A stretch of 40,250 nt of DNA from Alphaproteobacteria bacterium (GTDB lineage Bacteria > Pseudomonadota > Alphaproteobacteria > RF32 > CAG-239), in contig JAGBDC010000033.1 in the NCBI GenBank assembly GCA_017937705.1, positions 1-40,250 on the forward strand, read 5' to 3'. The position numbers and the translations under genes are program-made. Of this stretch, positions 24,114 to 29,208 are shown piece by piece; the stretch's first letter is position 1, and each line of letters starts with the position of its first letter. The notes under the pieces were generated by a model. It had not been told where the DNA came from. It was given only the letters and a program-made list of their open reading frames with translations, and made no database searches.

Positions 24114-27100
24114 ATGAAAAAAGTTTCAAACAGGCACTATATCGGCCGTAAAATTTTTGACTACATCATTGTTGCGATTTTGTTGTTGTTCATCTTTTTT
24201 ATGTGGCAATTATATCGTGGTCCGATATCCGTTCCTTTTTTGAAACCATATATTATTGCAGCGCTTAATCCGGATAGTGAAGAGGCAGAAGTTTCGGTTG
24301 AAAGCGTAAATATTGAGTTAGTTCGTTCAGTTAAGCCGTTAAAAATTATAGCTAATAATGTTGTTTATAAAAGCACGAATAATGCCTTTCGTTTTTCGGC
24401 ACCTCGAACTTCCGTATCATTTAGTATTACGGCGTTGCTTCAAGGTGTAATTGCACCATCATCAATTAATATGGAAAAGCCATCTGTTTACATTTTTACT
24501 ACATACGGGCTTAAAGAACAGGATGAAGCTTCTCGTATAACCGAGAAAAAAATAAACTACTATTTTACACAATTTGAAGAATTTTTGGAACGATTTAATT
24601 CTGAAGATAAAACTTATGCCGAGAGCTATATTAATAATATATCCATAACCGAAGGTGAAGTAGAATTTCACGAAGTTGATTTGGGACGAAAATGGATATT
24701 AAAGGAACTGAATTATAATTTTGAGCGAGGTTTAGGGGATATTTCAACAGATATCAGCTCTCTTTTATATTTGGGAAAAACTGTTGTTCACGTTGGACTT
24801 GACGGAGGGTATAGAGCTGCTGATAATAAGTTGGTTTTGAAAGCATATTTTGATGATTTGATTCCTTCCGATGTTATAAATAATTATGTTGACGACGAAA
24901 CAAAATCTAAAATGTATCAAATTAATCTTCCGGTTAGCGGTAATATCTCTACATTGATAGATTTTAATGAATTTATTAAAAACAGAAAAAACTTACAGCA
25001 TGCGGTTGAACAAGCAATAAAAGATATACACTTTCAATTTGAAGGAAGTAAAGGCAGTATAGCTTTTTCATCTGATGAAACCTCAAAATATAATATATCG
25101 TCATTTATTTTGGACGGAAATATTTCCGGTGGTCTTAATAATTTGGAAATTAAAGATGCCGATTTTAATTTGGGCGAACAAAAAGTAAAACTGGGATTTA
25201 GTGCGACCGGACTTGAACCTTTATTATTTCAATCTTCAATGAAAGATTTGAAGATAAAATTGACAGCGGACATCAAGGCTTTAAACTTAAATGATTTATA
25301 CATATATTGGCCTCGATATATTGCTCCTGCCGCTTGGGAATGGTGCAAAGACAGTATCTTTGGCGGAAAAGCCGAAAATGCTCATTTTGAATTTGACTTC
25401 GGTTATGATAAAAAAACGGAAGGTTTGGGTTTTAAAAATTTAAGCGGTGGTGCTTATATTGAAGATTCAAATATACGTTATATTAATACGATGCCGATGG
25501 TAACAAATGTGTATGGTGAGTTTAAAGTTATGCCGGGAGCCATAGAAATTGCGTTGGATAAAGCTAAATCTAACGGAGCATTGCTTGATACCGGAAATGT
25601 ACGTATTTATGGTTTAGGCGAAGAACATAATTTTATAAGCATAAATTTGGTATCTGATTCATCAATTACCGACGCCTTAAAATTAATTGATCATCCGCCG
25701 TTAGAGTTTGCATCGCAATTAGGATTAAAACCTGATATTTTACAAGGTAATGCCGAAACAGATTTACAACTCGATTTTGAATTAAAACGAAACTTGGGGT
25801 ATAAGGATGTTTTTGTAAAAGTAAATTCTAAATTGTTTGATGTTGAAATTGCCGATGCTTATAACGGAAAACCAATAAAGGCCAAAGAATTGAAGTTATA
25901 TGTTGATAACAATGGTTTATTGGTCGACGGAGATGCGGTTTTTGATGACATTCCTTTAACAATATCATGGAATGAACGTTTTAAGCCGGATAGGGATAAT
26001 CAAAGTCAATATCGAGTAAAATTACAATTAGACGAAGCAATTGCCAAGAAATTTGGTGTTTCCGTTAATGTGCTGAGTAAACCTTATGTTGACGGACATA
26101 TTGATATAGATGCTTTAGCTGTTCCCACAAAAGACGGATATAGACTTGATATAAACGGAGATTTAAAACATTCGATATTGAATTATAGCTTTTTGGGTTT
26201 TGTGAAACCTCTTGATGAAAATGGTGAACTAAAATCTACCTTGATATTCAAAAACGGTAAATTACAATCTATTCCTGAATTTTCATTAACTAAAAAAGAT
26301 TTTTCTCTTGGCGGAAAAGTTAATTTTGATAATAAAAATCGCTTAAAACAGGTTGATATAAACGATATAAAAGGTCCAAAGACTAATGCTCGAGCACAAA
26401 TAGATTTTGCGAATGATAAAGATAATAAAATAACGGTAAATATTTCAGGAAACAGCTATGATTTATCTCCGTTTTTTGACAATAGAGACAAGGAAGAACA
26501 AAAAGATACTTCTAAATCAGAAACAAATTTAGAAAATACTCCGAACATGGATATTAATATTGCCGTTAACAGATTGTGGAGCAATCCCGATGTGGCGGTT
26601 ACGAACTTTGCCGGAAATGTGAAGCTTGTAAACGGTATTGGGGTTAATGAAATTCATCTTATCGGTAATTATGATAATAATAAGAATATGACTTTAAAAT
26701 TTGATTATGTTCCCAAACCGAATAAGGAATATTATTTGACTATTGACAGTAATGCCGCCGGTAATACATTACGGTTTTTGCGATTGTATAAAGATATGCA
26801 CGGCGGAAATTTACATATAGAAGCAAAAATGGGAGCAGATAAAGAATTAATCGGTCATGCGAAAATTCGAGATTTTAGCATTCACAATACTCCGACTTTG
26901 GCAAAACTGTTAACTGTTGCTTCGTTTAGCGGAATGGTTGATATGCTTCGAGGAGACGGAATGAAATTTTCGCATTTTGATGCTCCGTTTAAATATCAAA
27001 ACAAAATATTATATGTAAACAAGGCAAAAGCCTATGGTAATGTTTTGGGAATTACTTTGACCGGTGCTTATAACATGAATAACGAGGCAATAAGTATGGA

Positions 27101-27326
27101 AGGAATGTTTGCTCCGGCCTATGGTTTGAATACGCTTATCGGAAGTATTCCTTTGGTAGGAAATTTGTTGGCAGGAAAAGACGGAACGGTGTTTGCGGCC
27201 AATTATTCAATATCAGGAACTTCATCGGAAGCAGAAGTTAGCTTTAATCCTTTATCTGCATTAAGTCCCAATTCGTTAAAAGAGGCTGTGGCTTCTGTTT
27301 TTGGGGATGAAGAAGATGAATTTTAA
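24114..27326 (+). CDS. AsmA-like / DUF3971-type envelope protein
   Basis: 1070 residues. One N-terminal membrane anchor (about 16-34) is followed by a very long periplasmic region of alternating beta-strands with repeated short motifs (LNLNDLYIYWPRYIAPAAW is the recognisable central segment, near 395). A C-terminal AsmA-type domain (about 925-1060) includes LLTVASFSGMVDMLRGDG and IPLVGNLLAGKDGTVFAA. This matches the large YhdP/AsmA family, thought to bridge the membranes and help move phospholipid to the outer membrane. The ATG directly abuts the prfB stop (TAAATG), suggesting coupling. Family assignment is good; the lipid-transport role is by analogy. Confidence 0.88.
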   Translation: MKKVSNRHYIGRKIFDYIIVAILLLFIFFMWQLYRGPISVPFLKPYIIAALNPDSEEAEVSVESVNIELVRSVKPLKIIANNVVYKSTNNAFRFSAPRTSVSFSITALLQGVIAPSSINMEKPSVYIFTTYGLKEQDEASRITEKKINYYFTQFEEFLERFNSEDKTYAESYINNISITEGEVEFHEVDLGRKWILKELNYNFERGLGDISTDISSLLYLGKTVVHVGLDGGYRAADNKLVLKAYFDDLIPSDVINNYVDDETKSKMYQINLPVSGNISTLIDFNEFIKNRKNLQHAVEQAIKDIHFQFEGSKGSIAFSSDETSKYNISSFILDGNISGGLNNLEIKDADFNLGEQKVKLGFSATGLEPLLFQSSMKDLKIKLTADIKALNLNDLYIYWPRYIAPAAWEWCKDSIFGGKAENAHFEFDFGYDKKTEGLGFKNLSGGAYIEDSNIRYINTMPMVTNVYGEFKVMPGAIEIALDKAKSNGALLDTGNVRIYGLGEEHNFISINLVSDSSITDALKLIDHPPLEFASQLGLKPDILQGNAETDLQLDFELKRNLGYKDVFVKVNSKLFDVEIADAYNGKPIKAKELKLYVDNNGLLVDGDAVFDDIPLTISWNERFKPDRDNQSQYRVKLQLDEAIAKKFGVSVNVLSKPYVDGHIDIDALAVPTKDGYRLDINGDLKHSILNYSFLGFVKPLDENGELKSTLIFKNGKLQSIPEFSLTKKDFSLGGKVNFDNKNRLKQVDINDIKGPKTNARAQIDFANDKDNKITVNISGNSYDLSPFFDNRDKEEQKDTSKSETNLENTPNMDINIAVNRLWSNPDVAVTNFAGNVKLVNGIGVNEIHLIGNYDNNKNMTLKFDYVPKPNKEYYLTIDSNAAGNTLRFLRLYKDMHGGNLHIEAKMGADKELIGHAKIRDFSIHNTPTLAKLLTVASFSGMVDMLRGDGMKFSHFDAPFKYQNKILYVNKAKAYGNVLGITLTGAYNMNNEAISMEGMFAPAYGLNTLIGSIPLVGNLLAGKDGTVFAANYSISGTSSEAEVSFNPLSALSPNSLKEAVASVFGDEEDEF

Positions 27327-27809: not shown

Positions 27810-27838
27810 TTGACAAAAATTGCACAAAACGATATAAT
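27810..27838 (+). promoter_or_regulatory. Consensus sigma70 promoter
   Basis: TTGACA (27810-27815), exactly 17 nt, TATAAT (27833-27838): a full match to both consensus hexamers with optimal spacing, the strongest promoter in the window. It reads into the small disrupted ORF at 27859 and could also drive the foreign gene at 28051. Confidence 0.8.
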
Positions 27839-27858
27839 GAAGATGTTTTATTACGGAT

Positions 27859-27970
27859 ATGTTCATTATTAGGTTAATTTTTTGGTTGTTGTTTTTTGAG
27901 TTCTGCTCAAATCGATGATTGGGAAATTTTGGCTGAAACTGAAGTAATTCAAGATGAAGCAGTTGTCTGA
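27859..27970 (+). pseudogene. Small secreted-peptide ORF, broken by a single-base shift
   Basis: ATG 27859 opens MFIIRLIFWLLF, a signal-peptide core, but the frame stops at 27916 (TGA). If one T is removed from the TTTTTT run (27892-27897) the reading continues as LSSAQIDDWEIL and ends EVIQDEAVV at TGA 27968-27970, giving a 36-residue product with a plausible SSA-Q cleavage site. It lies directly behind the consensus promoter. Possible explanations are a pseudogene, an assembly error, or a gene remnant whose 3' part was replaced by the sequence beyond 27971. No recognised homologue. Confidence 0.4.
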
Positions 27971-28050
27971 AGTGATTTTATCACGTCTCCCTGACAGCTC
28001 AACAAGATTAACCCAAACGGAGACTTGGGCGCCATTAAAATTATTATATC

Positions 28051-29091
28051 ATGGCAACAACAAACAACAACAAGAGAGTGAGAAACTTTTTCAAGGCTTG
28101 CGGTCGCGGGCTAGAGAGATGCTGGGATGGCATCGTATGGCTAGGTAAGGGCATTGTAGCAACACTTGTGCTGATTATGATGTTTATTTTCATTTATAAT
28201 CCGGTGTCGTTCCTGTTCTGGGCTATCTTCTTCCCGAAAGCAGCGTCTAATCTGATGTGGAATATGGATATTCCTGTGTTTTCAGAGGTGATGCAGTCAT
28301 TCAGCGGCTGGATAGAAAAATTCTTGCCTTTCGGAATGCGTAAGCATTTTATGAAGGTGCGAGGCATTGATAACTATTCGGCTAAGCTTCAGGTCAAGTA
28401 CTATGAAGCAAGTAAGCAGAAGCTTGAGGTCATCAAGAAAATGTCTGACGATGCAGTAAAGCGTCTTTGGAAAGTCGGCAATGCTAATGACTGGCTCAAC
28501 ATCGCTAATGCTGGTGCTAAATTTACAGATGCTCAGTTTGACCAGATGATAAGCCAGAAGTGTCCAAACATTATTTTTAGCTATGTGTCGAACAACACTC
28601 CTAATCAGCACATGTTAAATATGTTGATGAATGAGGTTGATGATGCATGGTTGGATATTCTCGGATACTGTGTTCGTCGTTACGGCCTTCCTGCTCCTCT
28701 AGTAAAGAGAATGTATGAGCATTGCAACGAGAAAGCAAAGAAGGTTTGCGAGGACAACCTCGTTATCTTTGCAGACTGCAAGTTTGTGCTCGGCACACAG
28801 TCTGGTGAAGCACTGAAAGAGTGGGGTTGGGCTTGTGAGAAGAAGCGTGAGATTTGCGTTGAAGCGCAGAAATGTATGTCTTTGTCTCAGTACATCAGGT
28901 ACTTTGAGAATGATTTGAAGCTCGATATCAGAGCTATCAGATATTTCCTCTCAAAGGGCGATTTGTCGATGGCATCTTATATCTTCAAGAAAGAGTATGA
29001 GGCTGTCTCAAATGATGACGAGTCGATGGCATACGTTGCTGCAAATCCGCAGTTGATGCGCAACTTTGCTTTGAATACTCCGAAGAAGTAA
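28051..29091 (+). CDS. Unknown membrane-anchored protein, probably horizontally acquired
   Basis: 346 residues; I do not recognise it. The basic, Asn-rich start (ATTNNNKRVR) is followed by a long hydrophobic stretch at about 34-61, then a mostly helical, soluble C-terminal region (about 95-345) with ten Cys in the whole protein, several widely spaced. Base use differs from its neighbours: all 11 Gln codons are CAG (14 of 15 in xseA are CAA), and a hand count on one 60-base line gives about 45% GC versus 37% for a host line. There is no Shine-Dalgarno before the ATG (AT-rich TTATTATATC), a trait of Bacteroidota genes. It is followed by its own strong terminator (29112-29145). Stand-alone cargo gene; a Bacteroidota donor is inference. 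Confidence 0.85.
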   Translation: MATTNNNKRVRNFFKACGRGLERCWDGIVWLGKGIVATLVLIMMFIFIYNPVSFLFWAIFFPKAASNLMWNMDIPVFSEVMQSFSGWIEKFLPFGMRKHFMKVRGIDNYSAKLQVKYYEASKQKLEVIKKMSDDAVKRLWKVGNANDWLNIANAGAKFTDAQFDQMISQKCPNIIFSYVSNNTPNQHMLNMLMNEVDDAWLDILGYCVRRYGLPAPLVKRMYEHCNEKAKKVCEDNLVIFADCKFVLGTQSGEALKEWGWACEKKREICVEAQKCMSLSQYIRYFENDLKLDIRAIRYFLSKGDLSMASYIFKKEYEAVSNDDESMAYVAANPQLMRNFALNTPKK

Positions 29092-29111
29092 TCTTCACAC
29101 TCTAGCGAATT

Positions 29112-29145
29112 AGCGTTTCCTCCCTTTGGGAGGGGACGCTTTTTT
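29112..29145 (+). terminator. Terminator after the foreign gene
   Basis: AGCGT-TT-CCTCCC, loop TTT, GGGAGG-GG-ACGCT, then a T run. The stem is long and GC-rich, broken only by a TT/GG internal mismatch. It is stronger and more GC-rich than the host terminators here, and probably belongs to the transferred segment. Confidence 0.88.
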
Positions 29146-29208
29146 GTTGCACTAAATTCAATAATCATATAAAATCTGCCGAGATTAATCAGAAAGAAGA
29201 AGCTCAAA

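Follow-up and report, generated by a model that had tools for sequence, protein, structure and literature searches.

The lone 346-residue gene of the stretch analysed here (the window: 40,250 nt, contig C28 of an alphaproteobacterial genome of 1.58 Mb that is 99% complete) is part of a stand-alone unit of about 27810-29140, in which sequence comparison identified a promoter, a structured leader RNA, the ORF and a terminator. We interpret this, with somewhat more confidence than doubt, as an RNA-gated, diversifying membrane protein unit of one alphaproteobacterial family. The leader is approximately 210 nt long, reaches into the start codon of the ORF, and is read as a 5' rod, then two hairpins whose loops pair to form a pseudoknot, and next to this pseudoknot a hairpin at the start codon. 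Comparison among relatives demonstrated the unit itself, hairpins P1 and P2, the pseudoknot, the absence of a Shine-Dalgarno (SD) site and the coupling of leader to protein. Features of the unit are listed below; the leader 5' end is predicted, and was placed about 7 nt past the -10 box.

27810-27838, plus strand: sigma-70 promoter, TTGACA-17-TATAAT (12 of 12 positions match, spacer 17)
27845-27957, plus strand: 5' domain of the leader RNA, a likely long bulged hairpin (rod) with a GAG-loop-CTC tip, from single-sequence folds
27961-27999, plus strand: hairpin P1, 27961-27969 with 27991-27999, from covariation (T27968/T27992 mismatched in the window)
27972-27975 with 27981-27984, plus strand: inner stem of P1, a predicted pairing outside the covariation count
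27985-27990, plus strand: pseudoknot strand 1, GTCTCC, pairing with 28019-28024
28012-28029, plus strand: hairpin P2, 28012-28016 with 28025-28029, from covariation
28019-28024, plus strand: pseudoknot strand 2, GGAGAC, inside the P2 loop
28031-28055, plus strand: likely start-codon hairpin P4, GCCAT (28031-28035) with ATGGC (28051-28055), from partner exchange and the centroid fold
28051-29091, plus strand: ORF of 346 aa with ATG start, N-terminal membrane segment followed by a soluble part
29112-29140, plus strand: intrinsic terminator with 13-bp stem and T run, from the sequence

The original prediction placed a segment with its own gene and terminator at 27985-29150. Gene and terminator stand, and the unit is longer, with position 27985 falling within the leader RNA. 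The TTGACA box is also present 5' of other leaders in the leader alignment. Neighbours of the ORF, named by reading their sequences, are a 1070-aa AsmA-like ORF, a HAD-like ORF, xseA and an M23-type peptidase, and no transposase or integrase was seen among the neighbours read directly beside it. A near relative was found in Alphaproteobacteria bacterium isolate RGIG4207 (roe deer colon). The same junctions occur in a separate MAG (JAFTWG010000029.1, roe deer colon), so the contig is not chimeric here and the chimera once named as a possible refutation falls away.

Upstream of the family members, the leader alignment contains a long conserved stretch that is seemingly noncoding. RNAalifold applied to a plain MAFFT alignment of 30 leaders predicted P1 and P2, with a compensated change in all 11 pairs. 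In the model alignment of 35 distinct leaders, in which the P1 and P2 columns were fitted to the covariance model and the pseudoknot lay outside it, double changes were present in 19 of 24 pairs, a count that none of 500 shuffles reached (11.6 in shuffles). Each of the 9 counted pairs of P1 had changed on both sides somewhere. When P1, P2 and P4 were taken together with the pseudoknot, 89.7% of 826 cells were paired and 120 cells carried double changes versus 32.9 in shuffles; sliding the partner by 1-3 columns lowered the paired cells from 90% to 29-48%. The pseudoknot is formed by the 3' part of the P1 loop, which is complementary to the P2 loop (GUCUCC/GGAGAC in the window; GUUUCC/GGAAAC, GUUCC/GGAAC, CCUUC/GAAGG and AAUCUCU/AGAGAUU elsewhere). 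Its columns carried double changes in 5 of 6 pairs (3 of 500 shuffles as high; for the covariation score, 0 of 500). Among 26 non-redundant leaders drawn from the 35 distinct rows, own strands outpaired swapped strands (0 of 20000 shuffles as good). All of these shuffles leave the relatedness of the leaders in place.

The 5' rod likely belongs to the leader as well: similar single-sequence folds were read in 22 of 26 leaders (exceptions L013, L022, L023 and L032), joint RNAalifold of the 5' domain supported the tip stem alone, and the folding energy of the whole leader was not unusual (z -1.24). The stretch earlier taken for a broken peptide gene belongs to the leader RNA. A leader peptide, uORF or gene remnant at 27850-27970 was rejected on inspection by eye: the reading frame is not conserved, the ATG is absent at that place in L022, L027 and L032, and one-base indels after it break the frame in L011, L021, L023 and L025, while the bases and fold of the region are largely kept among relatives. 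A search of Rfam 15 (4227 families) with 1501 bases spanning leader and ORF returned 0 matches at E up to 10, and the whole window at gathering scores returned one tRNA only.

The anti-SD duplex energy upstream of the ORF start was +1.9 kcal/mol. Values of -3 kcal/mol or better were reached by 21 of 29 other window genes (with the first ATG of each ORF taken as its start) and by 0 of 30 family leaders, in agreement with the earlier remark that the ORF lacks an SD site. In P4, GCCAU directly after P2 pairs with AUGGC at the start codon. This hairpin has 4 bp or more in 24 of 26 leaders and 3 bp alone in two, appears in the centroid fold, and was equalled in pairing by 1 of 20000 partner shuffles. 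Its fixed column register shows no double change; exchanged pairs (CCAUCU/AGAUGG, CCUUC/GAAGG and UCCC/GGGA) occur in shifted register in a few clades. P4 is therefore given as a likely part of the leader. No plus-strand terminator was found inside the leader.

The perfect promoter and the SD-less start beside the pseudoknot point to control at translation. Transcription would be constitutive, a putative ligand, protein or ribosome state would stabilise or loosen the pseudoknot, and the state of the pseudoknot would govern the opening of P4 and with it initiation, with the protein not made before the RNA has detected its cue. P4 is short and may for that reason fail to block initiation. A competing explanation, which we consider unlikely yet deserving of weight, is that the leader is a constitutive element for SD-independent initiation or mRNA stabilisation, with the pseudoknot and the A-rich loop of P4 serving to recruit the 30S subunit or to position it. 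The uniform lack of SD-like sites is consistent with such an element, as are the A-rich stretch between GCCAT and ATG, which is kept among leaders, and the position of the fold next to the AUG. However, pairing of the start codon, seen in most members, would be an obstacle to a pure enhancer, and the conserved 5' rod exceeds what an enhancer would need. RNA gating is the reading retained here.

Among known systems, translation-controlling riboswitches and orphan candidates with pseudoknots are similar in forming the 5' leader of one transcript and in their covarying helices and pseudoknot, and the likely P4 would place the start codon in a hairpin resembling an expression platform; conserved covarying structure in the 5' leader of the gene that it would control, by which riboswitches are recognised, is present here. 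In contrast to them, this leader matches nothing in Rfam, precedes almost one gene family, has no SD to sequester, and stands before no metabolic gene that would hint at a ligand. Autogenous leaders such as those of E. coli rpsO (S15) and of the alpha operon (S4) likewise carry a pseudoknot beside the start site and control initiation, as this one would, but here the leader has a length of about 210 nt and the gene behind it is not one for a ribosomal protein.

Distribution was assessed in the bacterial family of the window (153 genomes) and in samples of its class (289) and phylum (398). Protein search gave matches in 11 of 14 genus genomes and 42 of 153 family genomes. A protein profile built from 26 members (A3) matched 61 of 154 order genomes, nearly the same genome set as the protein search, and among the 398 phylum genomes matched that of the window alone. 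A first leader model (R1, 16 leaders) matched 53 of 153 family genomes at E 0.01 and 2 of 289 class genomes, both of the same family; the stricter filters used in both R1 scans lose weak matches. Beyond the bacterial family, the 289 class genomes sampled yielded no leader and the 398 phylum genomes sampled yielded no relative of the protein. A second model (R2, 44 leaders), run at E 0.1, matched 93 places spread over 60 of 153 genomes, with the weakest no better than chance; at E 0.0014 or better it gave 74 strong leaders in 51 of 153 genomes. A family protein follows on the same strand within 900 bases for 64 of these 74; of the other ten, nine precede an ORF of 31-41 aa and one an ORF of 78 aa. 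Conversely, a strong leader was absent beside 13 of the best 77 of 93 protein matches. These 13 include four with weaker leader matches (G005, G147, G017:C107 and G026:C16; E 0.013-0.053), one with a diverged leader form by eye (G006), and some at contig ends. The genome holding the window has one leader copy (its other matches are at chance level, E 1.6 and above), and G003 has neither leader nor protein match. Loci L002 and L003 are one genome.

Ten R1 matches seemingly lacked a protein relative; seven precede ORFs of 31-38 aa belonging to one family, and one precedes the 78-aa ORF. The remaining two of the ten (L114 and L116) look like chance and were rejected as leaders. The tiny proteins of 31-41 aa are unrelated to the 346-aa family yet lie behind the same RNA type, standing alone behind it at L108-L113, L115, L136 and L137. 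They have a core like FLRERKENYEYLFMLLDIRNK (ATG near 1189 in L108), and mostly a terminator-like hairpin 3' of the ORF. At L107 (G106), an ORF of 78 aa with hydrophobic segments starts with an ATG at about 1164 behind a leader of the same type. Leaders of the small ORFs seem, by eye, to be without the GCCAU/AUGGC form of P4.

A broader proposal, which we put forward tentatively, is that the leader represents an undescribed, family-restricted RNA class acting as a common sensor-lock for exchangeable cargo (a hypervariable membrane effector in 64 of 74 cases, a 31-41-aa protein in 9 and a 78-aa membrane protein in 1), with bodies swapped between leader and terminator in an RNA-gated, diversifying conflict locus. 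Leader and protein family appear to be new to the libraries searched. As a kind, leader RNAs and riboswitch candidates are already familiar, and the distinct trait would be one conserved RNA with exchangeable cargo. Nothing describing this RNA or protein was found among the literature titles and abstracts searched, a result that does not establish absence from print, and a passage search of PMC8040213 gave no matching mention. The gene had been proposed as an undescribed transferred gene; the family is indeed unknown to the libraries, and the conserved leader RNA, which is the main point, was missed. The 74 strong leaders in 51 of 153 family genomes, with no Rfam match, offer a directly testable new regulatory RNA. 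Its usual target is far more variable than the housekeeping neighbours, which gives a handle on how genes diversify while keeping their control.

The 346-aa protein has one hydrophobic stretch (residues 24-62). A hydrophobic region lies within the first 70 residues in 29 of 29 members measured, and a further one is present in L008, L011, L024 and L031. Identity to the window protein is generally 19-35%, rising to 83-84% in the sister genome G002 and 72% in a fragment from G004. The best Pfam match of the window protein was Salp15 at 22.2 bits versus a cut-off of 27.8, and at E 0.1 any one Pfam family matched at most 2 of 26 members. PADLOC and NCBIfam gave weak matches in 1-2 of 26 members, a defence family matched no more than 1 of 26, PHROGs (window protein only) gave no credible match, and the PDB profile search reached E 0.16 at best. 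Salp15 and the other weak family matches were rejected as being below cut-off or confined to 1-2 of 26 members. Structure prediction (AlphaFold, two-sequence alignment) was all-helical with a mean pLDDT of 45 and pTM of 0.27 and was not usable. The N-terminal segment probably anchors the protein in the inner membrane, and the soluble part is probably helical; the protein fits no known family among the libraries searched, as the earlier label of membrane protein of unknown function had implied.

It is improbable that the leader RNA is an active partner restraining the protein, the latter being a membrane toxin or abortive-infection effector, in the manner of a type III toxin-antitoxin pair. The resemblance to systems of the ToxIN kind lies in an RNA pseudoknot encoded directly 5' of a fast-changing protein gene, here also patchy and sometimes tandem. 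In contrast to ToxIN, the RNA is single copy with no tandem repeats seen by eye, no terminator was found between RNA and ORF, and the protein is membrane-anchored, about 350 aa long, and without a ToxN-like endoribonuclease match in Pfam, NCBIfam, PADLOC or PDB. The near-absence of defence-family matches also argues against an active-partner RNA, as do the occurrence of the same RNA type before unrelated small ORFs and the neighbours in 11 wider contexts, which by reading are mostly housekeeping-like among the contexts listed. RNA gating of a variable membrane protein remains the preferred reading.

Body variation was examined in pairs of loci. Between the window and G002, the gene has dN 0.095 and dS 0.83 (dS 1.98 over the first 130 codons), while its neighbours xseA and HAD each have dS 0.08, and leader and 3'UTR are 95% and 98% identical. 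The AsmA-like gene (window 24114-27323) has dS 0.38 in the same comparison, so slow change does not hold throughout the left flank, which recombination may also have touched. In G012, tandem copies (L007:348-2474, the first copy of only 246 aa) share every base between -49 and +11, about 45% of the body and 98% of the terminator. At the site shared by G001 and G007, xseA shares 98% of residues, this protein 31% and the leader 68%; there the whole unit differs by sequence, leader included. For L021/L026, gene dS is 0.155 against 0.015-0.066 in the flanks; for L016/L017, gene dS of 0.27 is not above the flank value of 0.33; and for pairs further apart the flank genes reach high dS as well (0.8-2.4). 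The six pairs giving a value had dN/dS below 0.5, and no positive selection was shown. By these comparisons, divergence in some pairs is much greater in the ORF body than in leader, terminator and neighbours, and clear cases of exchange are limited to window/G002, L021/L026 and the G012 tandem pair. Homologous recombination through the conserved leader and terminator could swap the ORF bodies. Because it changes fast, is patchily present and exchanges its body, the protein may act in conflicts or be exposed at the surface, and it may be subject to pressure for variation.

Cassette-exchange loci, such as those of antigenic variation and phase-variable specificity genes, are similar in having a gene body that differs between conserved ends. 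Here, by contrast, no silent cassette array or recombinase was seen beside the unit, a tandem pair is present in G012, and the variation is seen between species. We consider it very unlikely that the conserved ends are primarily a DNA element for recombination or mobility, with the RNA fold secondary. Bodies that differ between conserved ends, different sites in different genera and one between-genus transfer would suit such an element. Against it stand the compensated base changes, which require the folding of a single strand, the onset of conservation at the promoter, and the persistence of copies at one site in several species.

The window, G002, G001, G007 and G013 each carry a member upstream of xseA, as does G152, which belongs to another genus. 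In G004 the flank upstream matches, and the contig breaks off within the gene. Other genus members carry other genes at the xseA site. A second site is common to G009-G012 by flank-gene clusters, both sides not being matched in all. In the tree, which was rooted for drawing only and shows no direction of transfer, L016/L017 of g7 fall inside a g1 clade (forks 100/98 and 95/90), supporting by phylogeny one transfer between genera. The idea of a transferred gene thus retains horizontal movement and codon misfit to neighbours and loses a recent origin in Bacteroidota or phage, with same-site relatives present and no relative found beyond one bacterial family in the genomes sampled.

The ORF was confirmed as the codon-usage outlier it had been taken for. 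It uses CAG for 11 Gln codons and CAA for 0 (xseA: CAG 1, CAA 14), its GC3 is 0.49 versus 0.16-0.32 in 29 other window ORFs, and its GC of 0.43 is the top value among the 30 non-overlapping window ORFs of 120 aa or more; its codon choice fitted its own neighbours most poorly among 26 flank sets tested. GC3 exceeds that of flank genes in 22 of 30 family loci. Pooled codon usage of members from other clades fitted better than the own flanking genes in 23 of 29 loci, whereas for control flank genes the own flanks fitted better in 33 of 38; on this codon comparison, the odd usage is a trait of the gene family across hosts. The shared composition could reflect either codon selection or a pool of genes that circulates among members of the bacterial family. 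Atypical codon use can thus be a property of a gene family and is not proof of recent foreign origin.

A single-protein scan of genome contigs, which reaches close relatives only and is the sole coverage of Bacteroidota genomes, gave one match, an alphaproteobacterium; phage, plasmid and viral records gave none (viral scans reaching close relatives only; two tblastn). Within this coverage, relatives were found in the alphaproteobacterial family alone, and a Bacteroidota or phage origin was rejected. A recent single foreign gene from Bacteroidota or their phages, which CAG-only Gln and higher GC3 might suggest, is the least credible explanation: at least four further species of the genus have a member upstream of xseA, which argues from site comparison that the gene is no recent Bacteroidota insert, the composition is common to the family across hosts, and the start region called Bacteroidota-like has a sigma-70 promoter differing from the Bacteroidota type.

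One locus, L143 (G005:C33:4218-4595), matches the soluble part of the profile only and, by eye, is without the N-terminal membrane part or leader. Weak profile matches in g3 and g7 genomes are likewise to the soluble part only. These proteins possibly represent a wider family from which the soluble part was drawn.
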